Of a stretch of DNA of 64,000 nucleotides, positions 44,880-64,000 are shown piece by piece. The notes under the pieces were generated by a model. That model ran no database searches, was not told the origin of the DNA, and was given only the letters and a program-made list of their open reading frames with translations. The translations under genes were made by a program, and so were the position numbers. The stretch is taken from positions 6,159,501 to 6,223,500 of the forward strand of contig NZ_JAGIOH010000001.1 in assembly GCF_017876625.1 (NCBI RefSeq), in the 5' to 3' direction. Within the stretch, counting starts at the first letter, position 1. Each line of letters begins with the position of its first letter. The stretch comes from Streptomyces syringium. Lineage in GTDB: Bacteria; Actinomycetota; Actinomycetes; Streptomycetales; Streptomycetaceae.

Positions 44880-44886
44880 GGGGTTG

Positions 44887-44911
44887 GCCCCGGCCGGGCG
44901 CCGGCCGGGGC
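44887..44911 (+). terminator. Hairpin terminator after the MFS fusion gene
   Basis: A perfect 11-bp GC stem (GCCCCGGCCGG and its complement) with loop GCG begins 8 bases beyond the stop codon. Confidence 0.7.
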
Positions 44912-45050
44912 GATGGACGCGCGCGCCGGGGCACGCGCACGCACCGGCGCACGACGGATTCCGCCAATGGACCGCGCCCGGCCCCGCCCGGGGCCTACCG
45001 TGGTAGTGGTGGCGCAGATCTTGCGTACGCGTACGAAGGAGCAACCGCTC

Positions 45051-47549: not shown

Positions 47550-47635
47550 AAGCGGGCCGGGCGGTCTTGCCCGGGACCGGTGACGGCGGTAGTCAAGATC
47601 GTGACGAGTCGTCGCCCTCGGCATCGGGAGCACCC

Positions 47636-48364
47636 ATGAGCGTGTCGGACCAGTACAGCAAGGCCTGGGAAGGTTTCTGGGAGGAGACCTCCGACGTCCC
47701 GGGCGAGGTGATCTGGGATTCGGACCCGGCCCTGACGGCAGCGCCCCATCTGGCGCTCCTCGAACCGTATCTGGACCCCGCGCTGCCGATCGTCGACCTC
47801 GGCTGCGGCAATGGCACCCAGACCCGTTTCCTGGCCACCCGCTTTCCTCGCGCGCTCGGCGTGGACCTCTCGCGGGCCGCGGTGGAGCACGCACGGCGCT
47901 CGAACGGGGCCGCCGGGGCCGGGAGCCCCGCGTTCGAGCAGCTCGACCTGGTGGACACGGAGGCCGTCCGCGCCCTCCACGGGCGGCTCGGGGACTGCAA
48001 CGTCTATATGCGCGCCGTGATCCACCAGAGCGACCCGCAGGACCGGATGGCCGTCGCGGAGGCGGTGGCCGAGCTGGTCGGCGTCAGGGGGCGGGGCTTC
48101 GTGGCCGAACTGCGGGGGCGGGCCAAGGAGGTGCTCCAGGAGGCGGCGGGCCGGCCGGGCGGGCCGTCGCGCAAACTCCAGCGGGTGTTCGCCCATGGGC
48201 TGCGGCCCGCGGAGGTCGCCGACGACGAGGTGCGGGAACTGCTGCGGGCGGCGGGCCTGGAGTTGTTCGCCGAGGGCGACATCGACCTGGCGATGGAGGA
48301 TTTCCACTCGGACGGCAGACGTATCGAATTGCCCGCCCGCTGGTTCGTGACCGGGCGGAAATAA
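47636..48364 (+). CDS. Class I SAM-dependent methyltransferase
   Basis: A 242-residue protein. VDLGCGNGTQTRFLATRF is motif I for SAM binding, ALGVDLSRAAVEHAR holds the acidic residue, and VYMRAVIHQSDPQDR is the region of motif IV. The N-terminus (SDQYSKAWEGFWEET) and the end (IELPARWFVTGRK) look complete. Small-molecule methylation is likely; the substrate is unknown. It sits between the phosphatase regulator and the biosynthetic cluster, with 800 bases to the latter, so membership in the cluster is uncertain. Confidence 0.82.
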   Translation: MSVSDQYSKAWEGFWEETSDVPGEVIWDSDPALTAAPHLALLEPYLDPALPIVDLGCGNGTQTRFLATRFPRALGVDLSRAAVEHARRSNGAAGAGSPAFEQLDLVDTEAVRALHGRLGDCNVYMRAVIHQSDPQDRMAVAEAVAELVGVRGRGFVAELRGRAKEVLQEAAGRPGGPSRKLQRVFAHGLRPAEVADDEVRELLRAAGLELFAEGDIDLAMEDFHSDGRRIELPARWFVTGRK

Positions 48365-48508: not shown

Positions 48509-49169
48509 CGTGTGGTGACCTGTACAGGGGCCGCCACACCACCCACCGCCTCGCGGACCAATGAGTGCCGCTTGTTCAACTGCTCGCCCCCGCACAGACG
48601 GAGGCGAGCCGGACGGTACCCGGGCTCGGGGCGCGAGGGCTGACCCACGGTAACCGCGCTGCCTGACGGTAGGTGCCATTCCGGCCGCCCAGCACCCGGA
48701 TTTCGATCTTCCGAATCCGTGTTTCCGCTGATGAACGTAAAGCGCGGGCCAAAAAGACGATGCGGGATTCCGGTTGCCCGCCCATGCCTTCCTCTACAGG
48801 GAGTGTGCGATTCCATAACTCCCGAACCGCCGGTGATGTGGATCACGTTGCGACTGCTTGATCTTCGGCAGTCGCCTGTTCCTATAGTGATCCGCGCAAC
48901 GGGGAAGCCGGTCGATGGGGCGACCGGCGGTTGAATCCATATTGCGAATGCCCGTATCACGTGGCCGGAGGGGCATTCCGGTGTGGGGAAATCTTTTACC
49001 GGGTTTGCCGGACTCCTGTCCTTCGGACAGCCGACCTCGTTCCGGGAACAGCCGGACGTGATGACTCCGCGCCTGCGGGCGCGTTGTGGCCCACGCCCTC
49101 GGCACGGCGAAAGAACCGGCAGTCCCCGTCCGCCGCGTACGCAACTCGACGAAGCCCGAGGGAGGGTTC
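48509..49169. other. Cluster boundary region, no gene seen, candidate promoter
   Basis: This part is lower in GC than its surroundings and has no frame with normal codon use. A possible rightward promoter is TTGATC (48858-48863) with TATAGT (48883-48888), though the 19-base spacing is long. It probably holds the control region of the KASIII-led operon, whose leader would then be about 280 bases. Confidence 0.35.
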
Positions 49170-50183
49170 GTGACCGATCACGTCACGCGGAGCGATCGCG
49201 TATCCATCGCCGTACGCGGCGCGGCGTCGTATCTGCCGGAGCGGGTGGTGCCGGTGGCCGGCATGGCGGCACTGGACGAGAACGAGCGGCGCACCCGCGC
49301 CGGCCTGGGCATCGACACCGTGCGGGCCGATGACCGGATCGGCGCGGTGGAGCTCTGCGAGCGGGCCGCCCGGCAGGCGCTCGACCGGGCCGGGGTGGAC
49401 GCCCGGGACCTGGGCGCCCTGATCATGGTGGAGTCGCGGGCGCCGGAGACCTTCCTCAGCTCCGAGCCGACACGCTTGCAGCACCTGCTCGGGGCCGAGG
49501 CGGCGACGACCTTCACCGTGGGCGGCCTGGGCTGTGTGTCCGTCACTCCCGCCCTGCTGACGGCCCGGGGACTGCTGGCGGCGGATCCGGACATGGACAA
49601 CATCCTGGTCGTGCACGGCAGCAAGCCGGCCGCCGCCACGCGGTACCGGCACCCGGTGACGGTCAACGGCGACAGCGGGCAGGCCCTGCTGCTCTCCCGT
49701 CGCGGCCCGGTCCGCATCCTCGACATCGCGCAGCAGACCAACGGCCGCTACTGGGACCTCTTCCAGGTGAAGTACCGGGACCGGCCCACCTCGCAGTGGC
49801 GCGAGGAGTGCGCGGACGCCACCGCCTACTCCTTCCGGCTCGCGGTGGAGACGCGCAACAGGACATCGGCGCTGCTGGACGGGCTGCTGTGGCGCAACGG
49901 GCTGCGCCGCGAGGACGTGCGCGGCTACGTCAGCCACAACCTGTCGGCGGGCAGCCTGGCCTTCACCGAGGAGGCCCTGGACATCGGCATCCTGCCCGTG
50001 TGCAGGGAGAACCTCCGGGCCTACGGCCACCTCGGCCCCAACGACGTCTTCCTGAACCTCTACACGGCCCTGGAGCGCAAGGAACTCGCCGCCGGGGACC
50101 GCGTCGTGCTGATCAGTGTCAGCCCGGTGGCTGCCTGGAGCCTGCTGCTCGTCGAGATAGGACCACAGGAGGGTGTGGCGTGA
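49170..50183 (+). CDS. KASIII-like ketosynthase/acyltransferase with altered catalytic triad
   Basis: A 337-residue thiolase-fold protein starting at GTG behind GGAGGG. It begins RGAASYLPERVVPVAGMA, and the nucleophile is Cys122 in TVGGLGCVSVTP. The second residue is His256 in GYVSHNLSAGS. Where canonical KASIII has Asn in YGNTSA, this protein has YGH, so His287 replaces Asn. KASIII-like proteins that form esters, or join glyceryl-ACP to a chain in tetronate pathways, often have altered triads. It is coupled by GTGA to the ACP gene and leads the operon. It is unlikely to be fatty-acid FabH. Confidence 0.85.
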   Translation: MTDHVTRSDRVSIAVRGAASYLPERVVPVAGMAALDENERRTRAGLGIDTVRADDRIGAVELCERAARQALDRAGVDARDLGALIMVESRAPETFLSSEPTRLQHLLGAEAATTFTVGGLGCVSVTPALLTARGLLAADPDMDNILVVHGSKPAAATRYRHPVTVNGDSGQALLLSRRGPVRILDIAQQTNGRYWDLFQVKYRDRPTSQWREECADATAYSFRLAVETRNRTSALLDGLLWRNGLRREDVRGYVSHNLSAGSLAFTEEALDIGILPVCRENLRAYGHLGPNDVFLNLYTALERKELAAGDRVVLISVSPVAAWSLLLVEIGPQEGVA

Positions 50184-50437
50184 ACAGCATCACCGAGGAG
50201 ATCACGGAGTACCTGGCGGCGGCGCTCCGGCGGCCGGTCGCTCCGGACGACGACTACTTCGAACTGGGCCTCGCGGACTCGCTCTTCGCGCTGGAGCTGG
50301 TGACCTTCGTGGAGGAACGTTTCTCCATCGTGGTGGAGGTGGAGGACCTCGACCTGGACAGCTTCCGCACGGCCGAGCGCATCACGCGGTTCGTCAGCCG
50401 CAAGACCGCGCCGGCCGGGTTGGCGGAGAGCCCATGA
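50180..50437 (+). CDS. Free-standing acyl carrier protein
   Basis: An 85-residue carrier with its phosphopantetheine site at Ser34 in LGLADSLFALELV. It lies between the KASIII-like gene and the acyl-CoA dehydrogenase, overlapping both by 4 bases. In FkbH-type systems an ACP of this kind receives the glyceryl unit from 1,3-bisphosphoglycerate and carries it through two oxidations. That role is inferred from the neighbours. Confidence 0.88.
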   Translation: MNSITEEITEYLAAALRRPVAPDDDYFELGLADSLFALELVTFVEERFSIVVEVEDLDLDSFRTAERITRFVSRKTAPAGLAESP

Positions 50438-51645
50438 CCACCGTGCCTGACGGAGGGCAGCAGGGGCCGGACGGGCCGGACGAGCCAATAGGGCCGGACG
50501 GAACGGCCGTGGTGCGGGCAGCGGCGGAGCTGGCGGCCGAGGCGCGCGGCGACGCGGCGGGCTGGGACCGGGACGGTGCCCTGCCCGCGTCCGCCCGTAA
50601 GGCCATGGCCGCGGCCCGCCTGCTCGCCCCGGATCTGCCCCGCCGGTACGGGGGAGCGGACCTCGGCCCGGCCGCCCTCGGGGAGGCCGCCGCGCACCTG
50701 GGCGGGGTGTGCAGCGCGCTGCGCGGACTGCTGACCGTGCAGGGGATGGTTGCGGCGGCACTCGCCCGCTGGGGCACGCGGGAACAGCGCGACGACTGGC
50801 TGCCACGGCTGGCGAGCGGTGAGCTCACCGCGGGCTTCGCGGCCACCGAGGAGGCCGCGGGCAGCACCCTCGCGGCCGTACGGACCCGCGTCGAGGACAC
50901 CGGCACGGACGTCGTCGTGAGCGGCCGCAAGAAATGGGTCACCTTCGGAGCGGTCGCCGATGTGTTCCTGGTCCTGGGGGAATGCGGGGGCAAGCCGGCC
51001 GCCGTGCTGGTGGAGGCGGACCGCGCGGGAGTGGTCCGCGAGCCGGTGAGCGGTCAACTCGGCATGCGCGCGGCTCGGATCGCCCACGTCACCTTCGACG
51101 GTGTAAGGGTGCCCCGGAGCCATCTCGTCGCCCCGCCGGGGCTGGGGCTCTCCCACGTCGCCGCCACCGCGATCGACCACGGGCGCTTCACCGTCGCCTG
51201 GGGGTGCGTCGGCATGGCCGAGGCCTGCGTGGCGGACGCCGCCTCGCACGCCGCCACCCGCGCCCAGGCCGGCGTGCTGCTCGCCGACCACCAGCTGGTC
51301 CGGTCCCTGCTGGCCCGCTCCGCCGTGGCGAGCGAGGGCGCGCGGGAACTGGCCCGCCGGGCAGCCGGGTTCCGGGCGAAGGGTCCCGGGCGCGGCGTGA
51401 GCGAGACCATCGTCGCCAAGTACGCGGCCGCCGCCGCGGCCGCCTCGGCCAGCCGCGACGCCGTGCAGATCCTCGGCTCGGCCGGCTGCGAGCCCGACAG
51501 CAGGGCGGGACGGCACTTCCGGGACGCCAAGGTCATGGAGATCATCGAAGGAGCGCCGCAAGTGGCCGAACTCCACATAGCCGACCGCCTCCTGCGCCGG
51601 TACGGCCCGCCACCGGCCGCGCGGCAGCCCGGGGCGCCGGCATGA
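50434..51645 (+). CDS. Acyl-CoA dehydrogenase-like oxidase of the FkbI type
   Basis: A 403-residue flavoprotein. GFAATEEAAGSTLAAVRTR and KKWVTFGAVADVFLVLG are the flavin-contact parts, and the catalytic base is Glu in MEIIEGAPQVAELHIA. FkbI homologues oxidise an ACP-bound 2,3-dihydroxy or 2-hydroxy-3-oxo propionyl unit on the way to hydroxymalonyl-ACP. The N-terminal about 20 residues are disordered. The assignment to the FkbI role rests on the adjacent ACP and FkbH-like genes, as sequence alone only shows the superfamily. Confidence 0.82.
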   Translation: MTTVPDGGQQGPDGPDEPIGPDGTAVVRAAAELAAEARGDAAGWDRDGALPASARKAMAAARLLAPDLPRRYGGADLGPAALGEAAAHLGGVCSALRGLLTVQGMVAAALARWGTREQRDDWLPRLASGELTAGFAATEEAAGSTLAAVRTRVEDTGTDVVVSGRKKWVTFGAVADVFLVLGECGGKPAAVLVEADRAGVVREPVSGQLGMRAARIAHVTFDGVRVPRSHLVAPPGLGLSHVAATAIDHGRFTVAWGCVGMAEACVADAASHAATRAQAGVLLADHQLVRSLLARSAVASEGARELARRAAGFRAKGPGRGVSETIVAKYAAAAAAASASRDAVQILGSAGCEPDSRAGRHFRDAKVMEIIEGAPQVAELHIADRLLRRYGPPPAARQPGAPA

Positions 51646-52712
51646 CGGCCGCGGCGGGCGCCCCGGTCGTCAAGTGCCTGGTGTGGGACCTGGACGACAC
51701 GTTGTGGGACGGGGTCGTCCTGGAGAACGACGACCCCGATCCCTTCCCGGCGGCGCTGGAGACCCTGAGCGCGCTGGACAAGCGGGGCATCCTGCACGCC
51801 GCCGCCAGCCGCAGCGAGCCCTCCGTCATCCACCGGCATCTGACCGAGCGCGGCCTCGACGACTGGTTCTGCGCGGTGCGGGTGGGCTGGGGCGACAAGT
51901 CCGCCGCGGTGCGCCGGATCGCCGAGACGCTCGGCATCGGCCTGGACACCGTCGCGTTCATCGACAACGACCCGGCGGAACGGGCGGAGGTCGAGGCCGC
52001 GCTGCCCATGGTCCGCTGCTACCCGGCCGACGAGGTCGACCGGCTTCCGGACCGCCCCGAGTTCCAGCCGGAGCACCTCACCGAGGTGGCCTCCCGGCGC
52101 CGCGAGCTCTACCGCACCGAATGGCAACGCCGCGAGGCCGAAGAGGAGTTCGGAGCCGACCGGCAGGCCTTCCTCGCCTCCCTCGACCTCGTCATGGAGC
52201 TGCGCCCGGCGACCGAGGACGACCTGACCCGGGCCAGTGAGCTGACCATGCGCACGCACCAGCTCAACAGCACCGGGCTGTTCTACGACGCGGACGAACT
52301 GCGGCGGCTGAGCGCCTCACCGGCCCACCGGGTGCGCGTGGCGCGGCTTCGCGACCGGTTCGGCGACTACGGGATCATCGGCCTGGCCGTCACCGAACTC
52401 GTCGGCACCGACTCGGTGCTCCGGCTGATGCTCATGTCCTGCCGGGTCGCCTCACGGGGCGTGGGCAGTGTGCTGCTCGGCCATCTGATCCGGGAGGCCC
52501 TGGCGGACGGCCTCCGGCCCGTCGCGCACTTCGTCCCCACCGACGTCAACCGGAACATGCTCGTCACGCTCCGTTTCGCCGGCTACGAACCGGTCGCCAC
52601 CGAAGGCGACCGCATGGTGCTCAGCGTGAACCCGGACCGTCCGCTGCCGGAGAACCGCAGTCACACCCGCGTGATCAGCGAGGGCGGAGTGAGCGGAGTG
52701 ACGGGGGAGTGA
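51642..52712 (+). CDS. FkbH-like HAD-superfamily glyceryl-ACP synthase
   Basis: A 356-residue two-domain protein. The HAD half has the nucleophile Asp16 and Asp18 in LVWDLDDTLWDG, then AAASRSEP and VAFIDNDPAERAEV. The C-terminal half is a GNAT-like acyl transferase part with Cys in LMLMSCRVASRGVGSVLLG, the Cys position that receives glyceryl in this family. The enzyme takes 1,3-bisphosphoglycerate, removes a phosphate and loads D-glyceryl on the partner ACP. Glyceryl-ACP is then oxidised to hydroxymalonyl-ACP or used for tetronate rings. Confidence 0.88.
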   Translation: MTAAAGAPVVKCLVWDLDDTLWDGVVLENDDPDPFPAALETLSALDKRGILHAAASRSEPSVIHRHLTERGLDDWFCAVRVGWGDKSAAVRRIAETLGIGLDTVAFIDNDPAERAEVEAALPMVRCYPADEVDRLPDRPEFQPEHLTEVASRRRELYRTEWQRREAEEEFGADRQAFLASLDLVMELRPATEDDLTRASELTMRTHQLNSTGLFYDADELRRLSASPAHRVRVARLRDRFGDYGIIGLAVTELVGTDSVLRLMLMSCRVASRGVGSVLLGHLIREALADGLRPVAHFVPTDVNRNMLVTLRFAGYEPVATEGDRMVLSVNPDRPLPENRSHTRVISEGGVSGVTGE

Positions 52713-54613
52713 GACGGGAGACCATGGCGGTGCGCACCGGTGCCCGACACCACGACGGAACGGACCAGGAGCCGTGGTCGGTCCTGGCTGCCTTCCGGCG
52801 GCAGGCCGCCCGCGGACCGGAGAAGACCGCCCTGGTCATCGGGGGAGAGACCCTCACCTACCGGGAACTCGACCGGGCCTCGGCCGGGCTCGCCCGGCTG
52901 CTGTGGCGGCGCGGCGCCCGGCCGGGCCGGGTCGTGTGCGTCCGCGTCGAGCCGAGCGCCCTCGCCGTCATCGCGGTCCTGGCCTCCTTGCGGACCGGCG
53001 CGGCGTGGGCGGCCATCGAACCGGACCTGCCGCCCTCGCGAGTGCGGCAGTTGCTGCGCGACACCGACTGCGCGGTGATCCTCGGGGAAGCGCCCGAGCC
53101 GGACCCGGGCGACGTCACCGCACCGCCGGCCGTGCTCGACGCCGCCGGACTCACGGTGGCGGGCCTCGTCGAGGCAGGCGCCTGCACCCCGGACGACTGG
53201 TTCCCGCCCGTCCCCGAAGGCACCCCCGCCTACCTCGTCCACACCTCCGGATCGACCGGGCTGCCCAAGGGGGTCATGGTCAGCCGCGCCCAGCTCGTGG
53301 CGTCCATCGGCTGCCGGGCCGAGGTCTACGGCACCGAACCGTCCACCTTCCTCATGGCCATGCGGCTGTCCTTCGACGGCATGCTCGGCGGCATGTTCTG
53401 GTCGTTCTGCAACGGCCACACGCTGCTGCTGCCCGGCCTGCGGGAGCTGCGGCAGGTGGGGGAGCTGGCCCGGCTGGCGGCCGAGCACCACGCGACGCAC
53501 CTCGTCGTCGTCCCCTCCTACTACCGGGCACTGCTGGCGGAGAGCCGGCTGCTGCCGGACACCCTGCGGCTGGTCGTGGTCGCCGGCGAGGAGTGCACCC
53601 CGGAACTGGTCCGCACCCACCACGAACGGCTGCCCGGCGCGCTGCTCGTCAATGAGTACGGCCCCACCGAGACCACCATCTCCTGCGTGGTCCAGCCCGG
53701 CCTGGACGCCTCCTGGGACCGGATCCCCATCGGCCGGCCCTGGCCGGGCGCCCTGGCGAGGGTGCTGGACGAGCGGCTGCGCGAGGTGCCCGCCGGGGAG
53801 CTGGGCGAACTGTACATCGGGGGCATTTTCGTGGCCCTCGGCTACGCGGGAGCACCCGGCAGAACCGCCGAGCGGTTCGTCGCGGACCCGTTCGGGCCCC
53901 CGGGTGCGCGCCTCTACCGCACCGGCGACCTCGCGGTCACCGACGAGCGGGGAGCGTTGCACTACCGCGGCAGAACCGATCTCCAGGTGAAGATCCGGGG
54001 CATCCGCGTCGAACTCGGCGAGATCGAGAGCGTCCTGGAGAACCACCCGGCCGTCGGACAGGCGGTGGTGAACTGCGAACGGACCGACGGCGACGAACCG
54101 CGACTGATCGCCTTCGTCACCCCCCGGGCGCCCGGGGCCCCGGCACCCACCGGAGCGGAACTGCGCCGGCACTGCCGGGGATCCCTCGTGGAACAGGCGG
54201 TCCCCGAACGGTTCGTCCCCGTGGCCCGCATGCCGCTCAATACCAGCGGCAAGGCCGACCGGGCCGCGCTGCGGGACCTCCTCCCCACGGATGTCCCCAC
54301 GGGCTCCGCCACGGACGAGGCCCCGGCGTGGCGGGACTGGACCCGTGACCAGCGCACCCTCGGCAGGATCTGGGCGGCCGTCCTGCGGCACTCCGACATC
54401 GGACTCGACGACAACTTCTTCGCCGTCGGGGGGAGTTCGCTGAAGGTCATCGACCTGCACACCCGGATGAACCACGAGTGGCCCGGAGTGCTGCGCATGG
54501 GGGAGCTGTTCGACCTGATCACGATCTCTGCCCAGGCCGCCGCGCTCCACGACCGCCTGGGCACAGGCGCCGGGCGCGAAGCCCCCGCACTCCCGACCGC
54601 GTACGAGCTGTGA
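52709..54613 (+). CDS. Free-standing NRPS adenylation-PCP protein
   Basis: A 634-residue protein. GTG at 52709 is coupled to the FkbH gene; an ATG at 52724 is possible. The adenylation domain has core motifs YLVHTSGSTGLPKGV (A3), NEYGPTE (A5), LYRTGDLA (A7), GRTDLQVKIRGIRVELGEIE (A8) and NTSGKADR (A10 Lys). By my hand alignment the selectivity positions read D-G-Y-V-A-E-I-S-K, which I cannot assign to an amino acid. The PCP has Ser577 in FAVGGSSLKV. There is no condensation domain, so it loads an amino acid onto its own PCP, probably to start the chain or feed the next protein. Confidence 0.9.
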   Translation: MRRETMAVRTGARHHDGTDQEPWSVLAAFRRQAARGPEKTALVIGGETLTYRELDRASAGLARLLWRRGARPGRVVCVRVEPSALAVIAVLASLRTGAAWAAIEPDLPPSRVRQLLRDTDCAVILGEAPEPDPGDVTAPPAVLDAAGLTVAGLVEAGACTPDDWFPPVPEGTPAYLVHTSGSTGLPKGVMVSRAQLVASIGCRAEVYGTEPSTFLMAMRLSFDGMLGGMFWSFCNGHTLLLPGLRELRQVGELARLAAEHHATHLVVVPSYYRALLAESRLLPDTLRLVVVAGEECTPELVRTHHERLPGALLVNEYGPTETTISCVVQPGLDASWDRIPIGRPWPGALARVLDERLREVPAGELGELYIGGIFVALGYAGAPGRTAERFVADPFGPPGARLYRTGDLAVTDERGALHYRGRTDLQVKIRGIRVELGEIESVLENHPAVGQAVVNCERTDGDEPRLIAFVTPRAPGAPAPTGAELRRHCRGSLVEQAVPERFVPVARMPLNTSGKADRAALRDLLPTDVPTGSATDEAPAWRDWTRDQRTLGRIWAAVLRHSDIGLDDNFFAVGGSSLKVIDLHTRMNHEWPGVLRMGELFDLITISAQAAALHDRLGTGAGREAPALPTAYEL

Positions 54614-54640
54614 AGGCGGAAGCATGAACGGAACGGTGAC

Positions 54641-57600
54641 ATGAGCGAGACCGGTACGACGCAGGGCGGCCCGGCCGTCGCGGTGATCGGCATCGCCACC
54701 CGGCTTCCCCAGGCGGACACCCTCGAGGAGTTCCGCGAGAACCTGCGCAAGGGCGTCGACTCCGTACGCCCGATCCCCCGCGAGCGGATCGAGTCCACCT
54801 GCCTCGACCCGTCCGTGGACTACCCGGAGCTGGGATACCTGGACCGGATCGACCTGTTCGACCACGAGCACTTCGGTCTGTCGCGGCGCGAGGCCGAGGT
54901 GACCGACCCCCAGCACCGGCTGGCCCTCCACCTCACCCACGACGTCCTGCAGAGCGCCGGATACGCCGCCGCCGGCCTGCGGGACAGCCGCACCGCCGTC
55001 ATCTTCAGCTCGCCCGGCACCGGCTACGCGCCCCTGGTCCGCGAGCAGGGCACCCTCAGCCTGATGGGCAACATCCCCTTCGGACTGCCCGCCCGGATCT
55101 CCCACCTCTTCGGCTTCACCGGCCCCTGCTACGGCGTGGACACCGGCTGCAACGGCTCGCTCGTCGCGGTGCACCAGGCCTGTCGCGAACTGCGCGACGG
55201 CGACGCGGACTACGCCGTGGTCGGCGGCGTCAGCCTCCGCCCGATCGTGGCCCCGGCGGCCGGCGTGGCGGCCTTCCCCGGCATCAGCTCGCCGACGGCC
55301 AGATCCCGGGCGTTCGACCACCGGGCGGACGGCGCCGGCGGTGGCGAGGGCGGCGCCGTCCTGCTGCTCACCACCCTCGACCGTGCCCTGGCCGACGGGG
55401 CGTTCGTCCACGCGGTCATCCGCGGCAGCGCCGTGCTGCACAACGGCGCGCACTCCGCGACCATCGCCACCCCCAGCGCCCGGTCCCAGGCCGAGGTGAT
55501 CCGCAAGGCCTGGCACCGCGCCGGCCTGGACATCGGATCAGCCGGCTACGTCGAGGCGCACGGATCCGGCACCCGGCTCGGTGACGCCGTCGAGGCGGAG
55601 GGCCTGGCCCTCGCCCGTCCCGTCCGCGACCGGAGCCTCGCGGTCGGTTCGGTGAAGACCAACGTCGGGCACCTGGACCACGCCGCGGGCATCACCGGTC
55701 TGGTCAAGACCATCCTCAGTGTGCGCGACGGCGAGCTGTACCCCTCCCTGCACTTCGAACGGGCGGCGGACGAGGTCGATCTCGACGGCGCCCGCCTGGA
55801 GGTCGTGACCTCGCTCCGGCCGTGGCGGGACGACGACGTCCGCCGGGCCGGGATCAGCTCGTTCAGCCTCGGCGGCATCAACGCGCACTGCGTCGTGGAG
55901 CAGGCACCCCCGACCGCCGTGCCGCCCCGCGCGGACGGCGGGCCCGGGGCCGACGCGGCCCGCCTGGTCGGTGTCTCCGCCCGCACCCGGGCGGACCTCG
56001 TCACCCTCTGCGAGCGGCTCTCGCTCGAACTGCGGCACAGCGACCGGCCGCCCGCCGACATCGCCCGGACGCTGAACGAGGGCCGTGACCACCACCCGTA
56101 CCGCGTCGGCGTGGTGGCCCGCCGGACCACCGAGCTGGCGGTCGCACTGGCCGCCGAGGCCACCTGGCAGCGGCTCGACACTCGCCCGGAGCCGGCAGCC
56201 GGGCCCGCGCCCCGGGTCGTGTTCCTGCTCTCCGGGGACGCCGAACCGGTCCCGCTGCCGGACTGTGACCCGCTGCCGGACCCGCTGCCGGACCGGCTGC
56301 CCGTGCCGGCCGACCGCGTCGCGATGATCCAGGGCCAGCTCGCGGCCCACACCCGGCTCACCCGCGCCGGAGTGGCACCGGACGGCCTGATCAGCTCAGG
56401 GATCTCCCGGTACGCCGTCCGCCACCTCAGGGACGGCCTGAGCGCCGCCGACACGGCCGCGCTGGAACAGGCGACGAGCGGCGCGGACCCGGCCGTGGCC
56501 GGAGAGCCCGTCCGGCCGGAGCGACTGCGCGCCGCGGCGGACGAACAGCTCGCCGCCGGTCCCGTGGTCTTCGTCGAACTCGCGGCCCGGGGAGAGCTCG
56601 GCGCACTGCTGAAGGCCCACCTCGCCGACCGGCCCGACGTCACCGTGCTCACCCTGGACTCCGGCACGGACGGCGTGCTCGACGTGCTCGCCCGGCTCTA
56701 CGAGCTGGGGTGGAACCCCGACTGGTCCGCGCTGGCGGCCGACGCGGGCCCCGGCCGGGGAGCGGGCCGCCGGACGGCGCTGCCCGGCCACCGGCTCCGC
56801 GGCGTCCGCTGCTGGGCCCTGCCCCTGGGCGAGGTCATCTCCTTCGACGGCGTCGAGGGCGCCCGGCAGACGGTGGCGAGTGCGGTGGCGGCCCCGCCCA
56901 CCCGCACCAGCCCGTCGCCGGGGCCCGGGCACGCGCCCGCACCCCTGCCGGTACCGGTGCCGGTGCGGGCGACGCCCCCGGCACCCGTGCCCACGGCGTC
57001 ATCCGCACCGCAGACCGTGCTGAGCTGGCTCCAGGAGTCCCTGACCGAACTGCTCCACGCCGACGCCGTCGCGGCCGACGACGACTACTTCGCCATCGGC
57101 GGAAACTCCATCATCGGATTGCAATTCGTCGAACGCGCACGACAGCGCTACGACGTCCACCTCAAGCTGGTGGACATTTACGATCACCCGGTCGTCGGTG
57201 ATCTCGCGGACGCCCTCTCCGCCCGCATGCCGCGGACCGAAGCCCCGCTTCCGGCACCCGAACCCGTGGCCCTCCCCGCCGCGCCCGACGACGACGGGCA
57301 CCACCTGCCCCCGATCCACCCCGGCCCGGAACTCGTGCTGTCGTACGGGCAGGAACGCATGTGGTTCCACCACCAGCTCGACCCGACCACCACGCTCTAC
57401 AACCTCCCCGGAGTCTCCCGCCACCTCGGGCCGCTCGACATCGACGCCCTGCGGCTCGCCTGGGAGGACCTCGCCCGGCGGCACGAGGTCCTGCGCTCCA
57501 ACTTCGTCGAGGAGGACGGGCGGCCGCACCTGGTCATCCGGCCCGAACTGGGCGACTTCTTCCACTACGTCGACGCCTGCGACGAACCCGACCCGGTGAC

Positions 57601-59386
57601 CGCCGCCCGGGCGGCCGCCGAGGCCGCCACCGACCGGGTGCTCGACCTGGCCCGGGACCCGCTGGTCAACGTCACCGTCGTGCGCTGCGCCCCCGACGAC
57701 TACCTGATGTGCTGGGTGATGCACCACGCGGTCAACGACGGCTGGGCACCCCAGATCCAGCGGACGGAGCTCCTGGAGTTCTACACCGCCCGCACCGAGG
57801 GCCGGGTGCACCGGCCCGCGCCGCTGCCCGTGCAGTACCGCGACTACGCCCGCTGGCAGCGGGAGCTGATGGACGGCTCCCGGCTCGACGGCGAACTGGA
57901 CTACTGGCGCGGGCGGCTGACCGATCCCCCCGCCCTCGAACTCCCCACCGACCGGCCGCGCCCCACCCGGATGGACTTCGCCGGGGCGTCGCACGGATTC
58001 ACCATCCCCGCCGAACTCGTGCGCGAGCTCCGGGCGGTGGGCGGCCGGGAGACCGCCACGCTGTTCATGGTGCTGCTCACCGGACTCAAGGTCCTGCTCT
58101 CCCGCTGGTCCGGCCAGCGGGACATCGTGATCGGCACCCCGACCATCGGCCGCAGCCGCCCCGAACTGTGGGACCTGCTCGGCTTCTTCAACAACACCGT
58201 CGCCCTGCGCAGCGACCTCTCCGGCGACCCGACCTTCCGGGAGCTGCTGCACCAGGTCCGCGGGGTCGTGCTCGGCGCGCTGGACCACCAGGAGATCCCG
58301 TTCGACAAGATCGTGCGTGAGGTCGCGCAGCAACGTGACCCGGGCCGGAACCCGGTCTTCGACGTGATGTACGTCCACCAGACGCTGCCGCCGAACGTCA
58401 ACTTCGGCGAGAACCTGTTCGGGACGGGCAGCGACGAGGACACCGGCCCGTACTTCCCCGGACTGCCCCCGGGCACGGCCAAGTTCGACATCACGGTGGT
58501 CGTCGCCGAGAAGTCGGGCGAGGACTCCCTCGACGTCGTCGTGGAGTACGCCACGCAGCTCTTCGACGCCGGCACGATCGAGGCCCTGACCGACTCCCTG
58601 CTGGAGCTGCTGCGCGCCGCCGCGGCCGACGCGGACCTCCGGTACGGGGAGCTGCCCGTCCGGCCCCCGCGCCGTCCCGCGCCGCCCGCCCCCGAGGAGC
58701 ACGCCCGGCCCGCCGATGACCATCTCGACCACTGGAAGAGGACGTTGACCGGGATGGGTGCCTTCGAGCTGCCCGCCGACCGGTCGCGCCCGCTGGGCAG
58801 CGGCCCGGGCGGCCCCGGCGCCTGCCACACGTTCACCGTCCCCGACGACCTCGCCGCCACGCTGATCCGTACCGGTGCCCGGGACCGGCTGCTCGCGGGC
58901 CTCGCCGCGCTGCTCGGCCGGCGCGCCGAGACGGACGAGGTGGTCATCGGCGTCGACGTGCGGGGAAGCCTGCTGCCGCTGCGGATCCCCCTGGCCGACG
59001 ACCCCGCCTACGACGCCCTCACCGAGCGGGTGCGGGCGGGGATCGCCGCCGGGGAGCACCACCGCGACGTGCCGCTCGCCGACATCGAGCGCGCCCTCGC
59101 CCTGAGCCGGGAGCCCGGCCGGCCCCCGCTGTTCGACGTCACCTACACCCACGGAGGCGTCGCGCCGGCCGCCGGCAGGGCCGTCCACGACCTGGCCTGG
59201 TCCGTGACCGAGGGGCCCGAACCGGCCGGGCTGCACGTATCGGTCGCGTACCGCACGGACATGTTCGACGCCGCGACGGTCTCCGCGCTCGCCGACGACC
59301 TGGTCGCGGTGCTACGAGCCGCCGTCCACGACCCCGGGGCGCCGCTCGCCGGGCCGCCGTTCGCCACCGCCTCGCACGCCGACTGA
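54641..59386 (+). CDS. Hybrid PKS-NRPS: KS, degenerate AT, PCP, C and C-terminal half-C
   Basis: A 1581-residue megasynthase. The KS (residues about 10-430) has Cys170 in VDTGCNGSLVAVH, His307 in EAHGSGT and His344 in NVGHLDHAAG, so it should condense. The next about 330 residues resemble an AT region, but the GHSxG site reads ISSGISRY, the Ser is lost and much of the domain is missing; only the tail (LYELGWNPDWSAL, LPGHRLRGVRCW) looks normal. A carrier follows with Ser823 in FAIGGNSII. A full condensation domain has HH-x3-DG at 1028-1034 (MHHAVNDGWA). The last about 220 residues (DHWKRTLTGMGAFELPADRS onward) look like only the second half of another C domain. Extender supply must come in trans. 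Confidence 0.9.
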   Translation: MSETGTTQGGPAVAVIGIATRLPQADTLEEFRENLRKGVDSVRPIPRERIESTCLDPSVDYPELGYLDRIDLFDHEHFGLSRREAEVTDPQHRLALHLTHDVLQSAGYAAAGLRDSRTAVIFSSPGTGYAPLVREQGTLSLMGNIPFGLPARISHLFGFTGPCYGVDTGCNGSLVAVHQACRELRDGDADYAVVGGVSLRPIVAPAAGVAAFPGISSPTARSRAFDHRADGAGGGEGGAVLLLTTLDRALADGAFVHAVIRGSAVLHNGAHSATIATPSARSQAEVIRKAWHRAGLDIGSAGYVEAHGSGTRLGDAVEAEGLALARPVRDRSLAVGSVKTNVGHLDHAAGITGLVKTILSVRDGELYPSLHFERAADEVDLDGARLEVVTSLRPWRDDDVRRAGISSFSLGGINAHCVVEQAPPTAVPPRADGGPGADAARLVGVSARTRADLVTLCERLSLELRHSDRPPADIARTLNEGRDHHPYRVGVVARRTTELAVALAAEATWQRLDTRPEPAAGPAPRVVFLLSGDAEPVPLPDCDPLPDPLPDRLPVPADRVAMIQGQLAAHTRLTRAGVAPDGLISSGISRYAVRHLRDGLSAADTAALEQATSGADPAVAGEPVRPERLRAAADEQLAAGPVVFVELAARGELGALLKAHLADRPDVTVLTLDSGTDGVLDVLARLYELGWNPDWSALAADAGPGRGAGRRTALPGHRLRGVRCWALPLGEVISFDGVEGARQTVASAVAAPPTRTSPSPGPGHAPAPLPVPVPVRATPPAPVPTASSAPQTVLSWLQESLTELLHADAVAADDDYFAIGGNSIIGLQFVERARQRYDVHLKLVDIYDHPVVGDLADALSARMPRTEAPLPAPEPVALPAAPDDDGHHLPPIHPGPELVLSYGQERMWFHHQLDPTTTLYNLPGVSRHLGPLDIDALRLAWEDLARRHEVLRSNFVEEDGRPHLVIRPELGDFFHYVDACDEPDPVTAARAAAEAATDRVLDLARDPLVNVTVVRCAPDDYLMCWVMHHAVNDGWAPQIQRTELLEFYTARTEGRVHRPAPLPVQYRDYARWQRELMDGSRLDGELDYWRGRLTDPPALELPTDRPRPTRMDFAGASHGFTIPAELVRELRAVGGRETATLFMVLLTGLKVLLSRWSGQRDIVIGTPTIGRSRPELWDLLGFFNNTVALRSDLSGDPTFRELLHQVRGVVLGALDHQEIPFDKIVREVAQQRDPGRNPVFDVMYVHQTLPPNVNFGENLFGTGSDEDTGPYFPGLPPGTAKFDITVVVAEKSGEDSLDVVVEYATQLFDAGTIEALTDSLLELLRAAAADADLRYGELPVRPPRRPAPPAPEEHARPADDHLDHWKRTLTGMGAFELPADRSRPLGSGPGGPGACHTFTVPDDLAATLIRTGARDRLLAGLAALLGRRAETDEVVIGVDVRGSLLPLRIPLADDPAYDALTERVRAGIAAGEHHRDVPLADIERALALSREPGRPPLFDVTYTHGGVAPAAGRAVHDLAWSVTEGPEPAGLHVSVAYRTDMFDAATVSALADDLVAVLRAAVHDPGAPLAGPPFATASHAD

Positions 59387-59419
59387 CGGCACGGACCGAA
59401 CCGAAGGAGATCCCCCACC

Positions 59420-60355
59420 GTGGGTGAACACCAGAACACCGTGCGGGCCCTGGCGGCCGGCGCGACCGTCGGCGTCGTCGGCGCGGGAACCATGGGCATC
59501 GGCGTCGCGCAGTGCTTCGCGGAGGCCGGGCACCCGGTGGTGCTCGTCGACCCCGTCCCCGAGGCGCTGGGCACCGGACCCGCACGCCTGCGCGCCGGGG
59601 TGCGCATGGCGCACCTGCTGCGACGGCGGGACGGGCTGCGGGTCCCGGCCGGGGCGGCGCGCCCCGAGGAACGCGTGACGTGGTCCGCCGACCTCGCCGA
59701 CCTGGCCCCCGCCCTCTTCGTGGTCGAGTGCGCGCGGGAGAAGGAGTCGCTCAAGGAGGAGATCCTGCGGCACCTGGACGAGGTGTGCGGACCGGACACG
59801 GTCTTCGCGTCCTGCACCTCGTGCATCCCCATCACCCGGCTCGGGTCCTTCACCGGCCGCCCCGACCGGGTCATCGGCACCCACTTCATGAACCCGGCAC
59901 CCCTCAAGGACGCCGTGGAGGTCATCCGGGCGCCGCGGACCAGCGACCACACCCTGGAGCTGACCACGGCCTTCCTGGCGGGGATCGGCAAGCGGCCCCT
60001 CGTCGTCCGGGACGCGCCCGGCTTCGTGACCAACCGCGTGCTGATGCTGACGCTCAACGAGGCGGCGACGGTGCTGGGCGAGGGCACGGCCGACGCCGAC
60101 ACCGTGGACCGCATCTTCCAGGACTGCTTCGGCCACCCCATGGGCCCGTTGCGCACCGCCGACCTCATCGGTCTCGACACGGTCCTCGACTCGCTGGAGG
60201 TGCTGCGCGAGCACACCGGCGACGAGCGCTTCCGGCCGTGCGACCTGCTCGCTCGCCTAGTCGCGGAAGGCAGAACCGGCCGCAAGGCCGGTGGCGGCTT
60301 CTACCCCTATGCACAGCACCAGCGCGTCGAGCGAGGAGAGATCCGCCATGGCTGA
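59420..60355 (+). CDS. 3-hydroxyacyl-CoA dehydrogenase-like enzyme of the FkbK type
   Basis: A 311-residue NAD-dependent dehydrogenase starting at GTG behind [28 protein letters not shown] binds [19 protein letters not shown] carries the catalytic His, and [16 protein letters not shown] plus [11 protein letters not shown] complete the fold. FkbK homologues oxidise glyceryl-ACP to the 2-hydroxy-3-oxopropionyl-ACP, after which the FkbI-type enzyme makes hydroxymalonyl-ACP. Unlike the hydroxyacyl-CoA dehydrogenase of the ethylmalonyl-CoA region it is a single unit. It overlaps the next NRPS gene by 8 bases. Confidence 0.87.
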
Positions 60356-63300
60356 CCACCGGAGCAGGCACGTCACGATGTCCGCCGCGGGCCTGGAGGC
60401 GTGGCACGCGTCGAGGGACACCCCGGGCGGCCCCGGCGCGTACGCCGCCGAGGTCGTGGAGATCCACGGCCCCCTGGACACCGCGGTGTTCGAGGCCGCG
60501 ACGGCCCAGGTCGCCTCGGAGGCCGACGCGCTGCGGCTGCGGTTCGCCTCGGGCAACCAGGGGGCCGACGAGCCCCCGGCCCTGGAGACCACCGACGGTC
60601 TCCCGCTGACCGTCGTGGACCTCGGCGCCGAGCCCGACCCGGTGGCGGCGGCCGAGGAGTGGGTCCGGGCGGAACTCGCCCGGGCGCCCGGGCGCGCCAT
60701 GTCCGCCCAGGCTCTGCTCCGCCTCGCGCCGGACCGTTTCCATTGGTTCCACCAGCACCACCGGGCCGTCGTCGACGGCCACAGCTGCTCGCTCGTCACC
60801 CGCCGCGTCGCGGAGGTGTACACCGCGCGCGTCGAGGGCCACCCGCCCCAGGACGGCGCCCTGGCGCCGCTCGCCCGGCTGGCGGCCGAGGAGGCCGCCT
60901 ACCGGGAGTCGGACGCCCACGGCCGGGACCTCGCGTTCTGGCGGGAGCGCTTCGCCGACCGGCCCGAGCCGGTGACGCTCGCCCAGGACGCGACCGACGC
61001 CGTCGACCGCCCCGACGGGCCCGCCCGGCCGGTCGTCCTCACCGCGGCCGACACCGACCGGGTGCACGCGGCCGCCCGCTACAGCGGCACCCGGCCGGGT
61101 GCCGTCCTGCTGGCCGCCGTGGCCGCGTACACGCACCGGATGACCGGCGCCACGGACGTGGTGCTGGGCGTGCCCGTGGACGGCCGGCCGAGCAGCGCCG
61201 CCCGGCGTGTCCCCGGCGCCGCCGAGGACATCGCGGCCCTGCGGCTGACCGTACGGCCCGGCACCGGCTTCGCCGGCCTCGTGGGCCAGGTGACCGAGGA
61301 GACCCGCCGCGTCCGGAGCCACCAGCGGCTGCGGCACAGCGAGCTGTGCCGGGAGCTCGGGCTGCCGGGCACCGGCCCGCGCCTGTACGGGCCGGTCGTC
61401 GACGTCCGTACCCCCGGGCCGCGCCTGCGCTTCGGCGCCCTCGCGGCCGTCGTCCGCCGGGTCGGCGCCGAAGCGGCGCCGGACCTGCGCATCGTCATCG
61501 ACGAGGACCCCGCGGACCGCCGCCTGCGGGTCGTCTTCCTCGGCGCCCCGGGCCGCTGTGCCTCCGCCGAACTCGCGGCCCACGGGCGGCGCTTCACGCG
61601 CCTGCTGTCCGCCGCCGTCGCCGCCCCCGGCCGGCCGGTGAGCGCCTTCGACCTCCTGGAGCCCGACGAGCTGGCCGCCGTGCGGTCCTGGGCGCGGGCC
61701 GACGAGCGGCCCCCGGCCGGAACCCTCACGGCACTGCTCGAAAGCGCCGCCGCCCGGCACCCCGAGGCGGTCGCGGTCAGGGACCGCATCCGCAGCCTCA
61801 CCTACGGCGAACTCCACGAGCGGGCCAACCGGCTCGCCCGTCTGCTGATCGGCCGGGGCGCCGGCCCGGAGCGGACCGTCGGTCTGCTGCTGCCCCGCTC
61901 GGCCGACACGATCGTCGCGATGCTCGCGGTCCTCAAGACCGGTGCCGCGTACCTGCCGCTCGACCCGGCCTACCCGGCCGAACGCCTCCGCTACATGATC
62001 GACGACGCCCGGCCCAGCTGTGTGCTGACCAGCGCCGCCGACACCGGCCGGGACCTCGGCGGCCTGTCGGCGCCGCTGCTCGTGCTGGACGCCCCGGACA
62101 CCGTCCGGGAGCTCGGCCGCTGCTCCCCGCAGGCCCCCACCGACGCGGACCGCACCGCACCCCTGCTGCCCGCACATCCGGCGTACGTCATCTACACCTC
62201 CGGCTCCAGCGGAACGCCCAAGGGCGTCGTCGTCCCCCACCACAACGTCGTCCCGCTGATCGCCTGGGCGAGCGCCGAGTTCGGCGCCGAGGCGCTGGCA
62301 CACACCCTGGCCGCCACGTCGTTCAGCTTCGACGTGTCGGTGGCCGAGATCTTCCCCGCGCTCGCGACCGGCGGCAGCGTCGAGGTGGTCGGCAATCTGC
62401 TGTCACTGCTGGACAGCGACCCGCCGCGCTGGTCGGGCGGTCTGCTGTGCGCGATCCCCTCGGTCTTCGCGAAGCTCATGGACTTCAGCGACCTCCGGCT
62501 GTCCGCCAGGACCCTGTCCATGGCCGGCGAGGCACTGCCCGCGGCCATCGCCGACCGGGTCGGGGAGACCATGCCCGGCACCTGGCTCCTCAACGTCTAC
62601 GGACCGACCGAGGCGACGGTGTACGCCACCGCCTGGTCCTCCGACGCCGCCCCGGCCGGGCACACGCCGCCCATCGGCCGCCCGCTGCGGCACGTACGGG
62701 CCTATGTGCTCGACGGGTCGCTCCAGCCGGTCGCGCCCGGGCGGCGGGGTGAGCTGTACCTGGCGGGCGACGGACTGGCGCGGGGCTATCTGCGCAGACC
62801 GGGCCTGAGCGCCGGACGCTTCGTGGCCGACCCCTTCGGCCCGCCCGGCAGCCGGATGTACCGGACCGGCGACCTCGCCCGCTGGCGCGAGGACGGACAC
62901 CTCGACTTCCTCGGCCGGGTGGACGGACAGGTCAAGATCAATGGTTTCCGTATCGAGCTGGGCGAGCTGGAGGCGGTACTCGCCGGTCACCCGGGGGTGG
63001 CCGAGGTCATGGCCTCGGTGGTCAAGGACGCGGCCGGTGACGCCCGGCTCGTCGCCTACGCGGTGCCCGCGGCCGGAGCCCCTCCCCACGCCGTCGAGCG
63101 GCTGCGGGACTGGGCGGCCGAGCGGCTGCCGGCCCATCTCGTCCCGGGCGAGGTGAGCGTGGCGCGGTCACTGCCGCGCACGCCCAGTGGCAAGCTCGAC
63201 CGCGAGGCGGTGCCGGAGCTCGCGGCCGTCACCGAGCGAGCTGTCACCGAGCCCGTCGTGAACGAGCCGGCCGTCGCCGAACCCGCAGTCGCCGAACCCG

Positions 63301-64000
63301 CAGTCGCCGAACCCGCAGTCGCGGAACCCGCCGCCGTCGAGGCTCCCGAGCCGACCCCGGCCGTGTCGCGCGAGCAGCAGGTCGCGCGCGTCTTCTCGGA
63401 GGTGCTGCGCCGCCCCGAGGTCCCCGTGGACGCCAGCTTCTTCGACCTCGGCGGCGACAGCATCATGTCGATCCAGCTGGTCAGCAGGCTGCGTCAGGCG
63501 GGGCTGGTCCTGACCCCGCAGGACATCTTCGAGTACAAGACCGTCAGGGCGCTGGCGGCCGCCGCGCGCGAGACGACGCGCGCGGAGGGCGAGCACACCG
63601 TCTCCGGTGTCGGCGAGGTGCCCCTCACCCCGATCATGCACTGGCTCCGCGAACTCGACGGCCCCGTCGACGGCTTCCACCAAGCCGTACTCCTCCAGGT
63701 GCCCGGCGGGCTGCGGGAGGACCTGCTGGTCAAGGCCGTGCGGCAGCTCGTGGACCACCACGACGCCCTGCGGCTGCGCCTCGACCGGTCGTCGGCCGAC
63801 TGGCGGCTCGAGGTACGGCCGGCCGGCTCCGTGGCCGCCTCCTCCTGCGTCCGGCGGGTCGACGTCCGCGGTCTCGACGACCTGGGGGAGACCCTCGCCG
63901 ACGAAGCGCGGCGGGCCCAGGGGCAACTGGACGTCCAGGCCGGCACGATGGTGCGCGTCGTCTGGCTGGACGCGGGCCCCGACGCGCCGGGCCGGCTGAT
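60348..64000 (+). CDS. NRPS: C-A-PCP-probable epimerization domain (3' end outside window)
   Basis: At least 1217 residues, open at the window end. It starts with a condensation domain holding HHRAVVDG (His137/His138, Asp143). The adenylation domain (about 460-960) has [32 protein letters not shown] and TPSGKLDR. My hand alignment of the selectivity positions gives D-A-V-S-A-V-V-Y-K, unassigned. After a repetitive EPAVA linker comes a PCP with Ser1038 in [10 protein letters not shown]. The final part ([24 protein letters not shown]) looks like the beginning of an epimerization domain, so a D-residue is likely. Positioned last, it should accept the chain from the hybrid protein. Confidence 0.92.
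63273..63332 (+). repeat. 15-bp coding repeat in the NRPS linker
   Basis: GTCGCCGAACCCGCA occurs four times in tandem, the last copy with two changes, encoding the pentapeptide Val-Ala-Glu-Pro-Ala. More diverged copies precede it. It extends the A-to-PCP linker and is in frame, so copy-number change would not break the gene. Confidence 0.85.

Follow-up and report, generated by a model that had tools for sequence, protein, structure and literature searches.

How a polyketide synthase (PKS) module that has lost its own loading domain receives an extender unit is the question raised by an operon which starts at position 49170 of a 64,000-nucleotide stretch of the Streptomyces syringium genome, here called the window. 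The cluster is probably a hybrid line of PKS and nonribosomal peptide synthetase (NRPS) proteins that builds a small peptide with a rare glycerate-derived piece. A repurposed ketosynthase III (KSIII)-like enzyme seems to load this piece, because the usual loading domain, the acyltransferase (AT), is broken. The original prediction gave this enzyme as one of several parts; it is the element of the locus that deserves most interest. All coordinates are positions of the window, and numbers above 64,000 lie in its extension into the same genome.

The window was extended with its own genome and the genes were called. The operon was found to continue, tightly packed, to about 76,800, and the sequence past 64,000 supplied the end of NRPS2, NRPS3 and MbtH. 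The order of the genes is the KSIII-like protein, a stand-alone acyl carrier protein (ACP), FkbI, FkbH, an adenylation-peptidyl carrier protein pair (A-PCP), a KS-AT(dead)-PCP-C-half C protein (KS, ketosynthase; C, condensation), FkbK, NRPS2, NRPS3 and MbtH. Seven of the nine junctions from KSIII to MbtH overlap, six by 4 bases and one by 8, and the other two are gaps of 27 and 33 bases, in accordance with the coupling or close spacing that had been described. All the parts named from the letters of the window lie where described, most of them recovered by Pfam and FkbH by NCBIfam. The features are as follows (E, epimerization; TE, thioesterase).

49170 to 50183, plus strand: KSIII-like protein, proposed trans-acyltransferase; Pfam ACP_syn_III_C, triad Cys122, His287 and Asp292; the open reading frame in the Pfam search was 49086 to 50183 and the start was refined to 49170
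50180 to 50437, plus strand: stand-alone ACP, proposed carrier of the glyceryl and hydroxymalonyl groups; Pfam PP-binding
50434 to 51645, plus strand: FkbI-like protein of the acyl-CoA dehydrogenase family; Pfam acyl-CoA dehydrogenase domains
51642 to 52712, plus strand: FkbH-like glyceryl transferase/phosphatase; NCBIfam TIGR01686, 222.9 bits (cut-off 146.65)
52709 to 54613, plus strand: stand-alone A-PCP (A1), pocket code DGGVVAEIS; Pfam AMP-binding and PP-binding
54641 to 59386, plus strand: KS-AT(dead)-PCP-C-half C protein; Pfam KS, PP-binding and two Condensation stretches, first C motif HHAVNDG
59420 to 60355, plus strand: FkbK-like protein of the 3-hydroxyacyl-CoA dehydrogenase family; Pfam 3HCDH
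60348 to 67307 (the window ends at 64000), plus strand: NRPS2, C(dead, HRAVVDG)-A-PCP-E-C-TE, A code DVACSAVVY
67304 to 76564, beyond the window: NRPS3, C-A(Thr)-PCP-C-A-PCP-E-C
from 76561, beyond the window: MbtH
about 81484 to 91216, beyond the window and outside the operon: enterobactin-type set (EntA, EntC, EntE, EntB, an aryl carrier protein, an EntF-like protein with a Ser code, and a phosphopantetheinyl transferase)

The state of the AT was analysed in the window and 22 relatives. The Cys and both His residues of the KS are kept in all 23 sequences, and the AT nucleophile motif is lost in the same 23, most often as SSGxSRY. The Pfam AT model PF00698 gave no match on the KS protein even at an E value of 10. 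The structure of the AT stretch was predicted with modest confidence (mean predicted local distance difference test score, pLDDT, 71.7), and KS-AT and AT structures were its best matches; the label of a dead AT, already given from the letters alone, is fair because this resemblance persists despite the missing PF00698 match. In its own genome no other AT was found within 120 kb of the operon, and the AT search found no free-standing AT-fold transferase in the window cluster. The operon therefore holds a KS module without a working AT, the mark of trans-AT PKSs.

The catalytic residues of the KSIII-like enzyme were compared in an alignment of 22 sequences, in all of which Cys122, His287 and Asp292 are invariant. 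His287 occupies the position of the catalytic Asn of FabH, a position that holds His in all 22. The other catalytic His of FabH is Gln in 18 sequences and is kept in four (the window and three relatives); a second set of 25 KSIII sequences agrees, with Gln in 21. The enzyme lacks the Cys-His-Asn triad of the decarboxylating KASIII (FabH) and carries the ChlB3/CerJ-type signature of Cys-His-Asp, with His and Asp five residues apart. In a profile alignment its GHLGPND block pairs with GHLGASD of ChlB3 (general form GHLGxxD). The available text of PMC9573744 gives the ChlB3 triad as Cys113, His296 and Asp301 and places the His/Asp pair also in CerJ, and the title of structure entry 3t5y describes CerJ with malonate on its Cys. 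The predicted structure of KSIII had a mean pLDDT of 87.8; the fold search ranked NatS and ChlB3 first, with DpsC within about 1 Z and other thiolase-fold enzymes close. The thiolase fold is the likeness shared with ChlB3, CerJ, NatS, SfaN and AfcL, and in the source text at hand the Cys-His-Asp triad is reported for ChlB3, CerJ and AfcL/AfcO and malonyl transfer for CerJ. The roles which that text gives for ChlB3, CerJ, SfaN and AfcL are starter, tailoring, ester-forming or shuttle functions, whereas KSIII here partners an AT-dead extension module. No KSIII acyltransferase that feeds extender units turned up in the literature searched.

The association of KSIII with such modules was then followed in other genomes. 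The KSIII search gave 35 places: the window's own, five repeats of genomes already read (G388, G199, G043, G411 and G413), G302, which was left out of the KS reading, and 28 that were read. Among these 28, L121 has no KS on its piece, L122 has an intact AT, and 26 carry KS modules without GxSxG (21 and the five of G145, G115, G376, G235 and G169). Together with the plasmid locus L086, the 22 relatives and the window, the AT is dead or deleted in 50 of 50 KS modules beside KSIII, in several of them deleted outright. An AT protein search matched two of 51 KSIII-side sequences, L122 and G019; in this set L107 and L132 are one cluster, as are L109 and L133. At five loci (L108, L109, L110, L127 and L128) KSIII and the AT-dead KS persist, and neither FkbH, FkbI, FkbK nor a matching ACP is found in the surrounding 10 kb or so (for L109, 19 kb on the upstream side), which indicates that the AT-dead module is the steady partner of KSIII. 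G058 and G070 each have a single FkbH, located at a different site of the genome next to another KSIII, G359 has two FkbH genes, both on other contigs, and at L107 FkbH is about 21 kb off in the same cluster; supply from a distant FkbH locus to KSIII loci without nearby glycerate genes is possible.

All seven further FkbH loci found in the cluster-bearing genomes (one in G008, two each in G012, G020 and G022), read as stretches of about 20 kb, served as controls. FkbI and FkbK are present in all seven, and there is no KSIII within about 10 kb. An AT was matched in six of them, four with GYSxG and two with GHSxG, and L081 had none in reach. The hydroxymalonyl-ACP-specific AT of ZmaA has a motif of the same type as the four (GYSFG), according to the consulted part of PMC4207774.

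Taken with the gene families, these results suggest the following scheme. The supply of hydroxymalonyl-ACP by the operon is very probable, as proteins of FkbH, FkbI and FkbK type and a stand-alone ACP lie together in the way of hydroxymalonyl-ACP operons. The glycerate-derived ACP chemistry that had been proposed is borne out to this extent, and the four genes stay together in relatives long enough to show them. FkbH would take glyceryl from 1,3-bisphosphoglycerate to the stand-alone ACP, and FkbK and FkbI would oxidise glyceryl-ACP to hydroxymalonyl-ACP. KSIII would pass the hydroxymalonyl group, without decarboxylation, from this ACP to the KS module's PCP in the role of the dead AT, and the KS would condense this unit with the chain from the stand-alone A1-PCP. 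The result would be one glycerate-derived two-carbon hydroxyl unit in a short peptide. That KSIII acts as this trans-acyltransferase is the reading we favour with moderate confidence.

Several observations weigh against this scheme. The step from KSIII to the PCP is one that we infer from the sequence signature, the gene partners and the controls. The 50 KS modules share ancestry and are not independent trials. At L122 a KSIII lies near a truncated PKS with the intact AT motif GHSQG, and in G019 about 30 kb separate the KSIII from an AT. The KSIII of the window itself retains the FabH-type His that 18 of 22 sequences have lost. Counted by module, only four of the seven KS modules in the control set show the AT motif, and for the remaining three an AT lies at another place of their locus. 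From the five loci that lack glycerate genes it follows that the substrate of KSIII need not be hydroxymalonyl everywhere. In NRPS2 the C between E and TE is intact, yet it has no A-PCP of its own; our guess is that it re-uses the A1-PCP. O-methylation of the unit may also occur: no FkbG-type O-methyltransferase is present among the operon genes from 49170 to 76564, as originally noted, but a methyltransferase gene lies upstream at about 47636 to 48364, outside the operon, and is found beside the cluster elsewhere only in S. netropsis.

Other uses of KSIII were weighed against its proposed part as extender transferase. The KS could instead take hydroxymalonyl straight from the stand-alone ACP, in which case KSIII would hand the already extended chain, and not the extender, over from ACP to the PCP of the module. 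This arrangement would require identical genes, but the five loci that hold KSIII and an AT-dead KS without FkbH, FkbI, FkbK or matching ACP nearby speak against it, and we consider it unlikely. A function of KSIII unrelated to the extender, namely the loading of a starter or capping acyl group for the N-terminal C of NRPS3, is rather improbable. Known KSIII-like acyltransferases do act on starter or tailoring groups (ChlB3, in the available text of PMC9573744), and the first C of NRPS3 is closest to the EntF-type C; against this, KSIII tracks AT-dead KS modules even in clusters of very different NRPS make-up. SfaN is reportedly a further KSIII-like acyltransferase of the starter or tailoring type, going by a title. 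The formation of a tetronate or related ring from glyceryl-ACP by a FabH-like enzyme, which the original prediction had kept as a second fate of the glyceryl unit, is hardly credible here. KSIII, FkbH and ACP do co-occur as in tetronate clusters, but the tetromadurin scheme, as far as the consulted text of PMC7489565 gives it, leaves the two dehydrogenases unused in tetronate formation, and here both are conserved. The FabH-like triad expected of a tetronate cluster is absent from KSIII on its residues, with Asn changed to His in 22 of 22 and His to Gln in 18 of 22; a TE is available for release, and KSIII occurs without FkbH at some loci.

It is highly improbable that the operon and the neighbouring enterobactin-type genes form one catecholate siderophore system. 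The enterobactin-type set stands next door with two iron-box-like sites (81253 and 81455, 3 mismatches each), and it is likewise adjacent in S. netropsis. However, it is adjacent only in S. netropsis (L067) among 20 stretches, a few others having distant EntA/EntC relatives, and an EntB relative (at least 46% identity) is present in only 12 of the 22 cluster-bearing genomes; the enterobactin-type cluster was therefore treated as separate. There is also no iron-box-like site near 49 kb: none with five or fewer mismatches was found at the operon start, against a background of three mononucleotide shuffles scanned on one strand. The siderophore reading as one unit was rejected as the dihydroxybenzoate genes do not travel with the cluster.

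With KSIII as the proposed extender transferase, the order of the assembly line was examined. The NRPS3-like protein of Rhodococcus terminates in C-(A remnant)-T (T, thiolation) immediately ahead of the KS gene, and a stand-alone A with an A1-like code is present; in Actinophytocola and Goodfellowiella the KS protein continues as C-A-T-TE (KS...T-C-A-T-TE). These layouts argue for the order NRPS3, A1, KS, A2, TE, so that NRPS3 would add Thr and then a D-residue, followed by A1, the hydroxymalonyl unit, A2 on NRPS2 and release by the TE. NRPS2 was typed with our own profiles and PF00668, and E was told from C by a start of LTPIMHW, which we take to be the mark of E domains. The last gene of the window had been described as C-A-PCP-E; this part stands, but the full gene runs on to C-A-PCP-E-C-TE. 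HHxxxDG (HH and D) is present in the first C of all 23 KS proteins, and the second His is missing from the N-terminal C of NRPS2 in all 21 proteins having the domain, the window included. That N-terminal C was ruled out as a working domain, and because of this loss the first C of the KS protein would be the working C for the A2 step. The half C reported at the end of the KS protein is seen in the window, but in several relatives it is a full-length C without the catalytic motif. At the junction of the KS protein and NRPS2 (54641 to 67307 and relatives) a motif-dead end C of some relatives faces the motif-dead start C (21 of 21); such facing domains perhaps serve as docking parts.

The predicted core, from the pocket codes, is Thr, a D-residue of Val-like code, an unassigned residue, the hydroxy-keto two-carbon unit and a second unassigned residue; ring closure on Thr is possible. 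The pocket positions were placed by motif, and the codes DFWNIGMVH, DVWHLSLVD and DAMWWGGTF were taken to mean Thr, Ser and Val-like respectively. We know of no confident substrate match for DGGVVAEIS (A1) or DVACSAVVY (A2), and a PDB search with A1 returned general NRPS matches only.

The cluster was compared with known systems. Zwittermicin A shares a glycerate-derived hydroxymalonyl-ACP on a stand-alone ACP used in a PKS-NRPS line, but in the part of PMC4207774 consulted its unit is loaded by an active AT (GYSFG), whereas here the AT is dead and KSIII is present. The methoxymalonyl-ACP operons, such as mad11-mad15 of tetromadurin, share FkbH, ACP and two dehydrogenases; in contrast, this operon has no O-methyltransferase and has KSIII inserted. 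In the tetromadurin scheme, as the available text of PMC7489565 gives it, FkbH, ACP and two dehydrogenases yield hydroxymalonyl-ACP, and the tetronate comes from a separate set of FkbH, ACP and FabH-like enzyme. As in trans-AT PKSs, a separate enzyme would supply a KS module whose AT is absent or degenerate, but the enzyme proposed here has the thiolase fold and not the FabD-type AT fold. Foxicin was tried as a known relative (hydroxymalonyl and siderophore) and rejected: its PKS has AT-DH-KR modules (DH, dehydratase; KR, ketoreductase) and an FkbH domain inside the PKS, going by the consulted part of PMC5318452.

In modular PKSs the loading of extenders is usually ascribed to enzymes of the AT fold, acting in cis or in trans. 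The chances seem even that the thiolase-fold KSIII marks a distinct and widespread route for feeding AT-dead KS modules in actinobacterial PKS-NRPS lines, with hydroxymalonyl in clusters that have the glycerate genes and perhaps malonyl in those that lack them. If so, genome-mining rules misread these clusters by calling KSIII a condensing enzyme and the module inactive, and KSIII would provide a compact transferase able to deliver a rare extender linked to ACP. The clusters predict new peptides bearing an alpha-hydroxy-beta-keto unit.

A scan for the KS protein in a collection of 84,980 species gave 36 loci, a lower bound since the scan needs exact short peptides. The best-segment identity of the KS protein is 89% in S. 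netropsis, 53-73% in other Streptomyces and 43-58% in Rhodococcus, Nocardia, Micromonospora, Goodfellowiella, Actinophytocola and others. Among 295 genomes of the genus, 9 hold FkbI relatives (E 1e-100), and KSIII relatives (E 1e-50) are present in 30 of 392, with the own genome counted both times. Wherever a Streptomyces locus is long enough for the gene order to be read, that order is preserved. Variants of it occur in genera such as Rhodococcus, Nocardia and Micromonospora. The earlier remark that no cluster has this exact arrangement holds for characterised clusters: none, and no characterised product, was found to match in the literature searched, MIBiG lying outside that comparison. It fails for sequenced genomes, the arrangement recurring in many actinobacteria. 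Because the flanks differ between species, the conserved unit runs from KSIII to NRPS3, with MbtH often included.

A shorter type of cluster in five genomes (G004-G007 and G011) lacks the E-C pairs and the module of the fourth A domain (A4), with a C remnant in G006. Ten loci, L111-L120, form a diverged second family in the order FkbK, ACP, FkbI, KSIII, FkbH, beside AT-less KS modules and small NRPS pieces. In S. californicus the linear plasmid NZ_CP070247.1 (265 kb; L086, locus 1-40990) bears the cluster, about 19 kb from type I-E cas1e and cas2e, so the cluster can ride a replicon of mobile size.

Upstream of the operon, 42477 to 48364 holds a transporter of the major facilitator superfamily type with a carboxypeptidase-like repeat tail, a large GAF/PP2C-type regulator and the methyltransferase, the first two named by eye; close copies of these genes were found only in S. 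netropsis among the relatives compared. Three peptidase-like genes (DppA-like, M20-like and S9-like, named by eye) lie between the operon and the enterobactin-type genes at about 76923 to 81128 and, among the stretches compared, are common only to S. netropsis.
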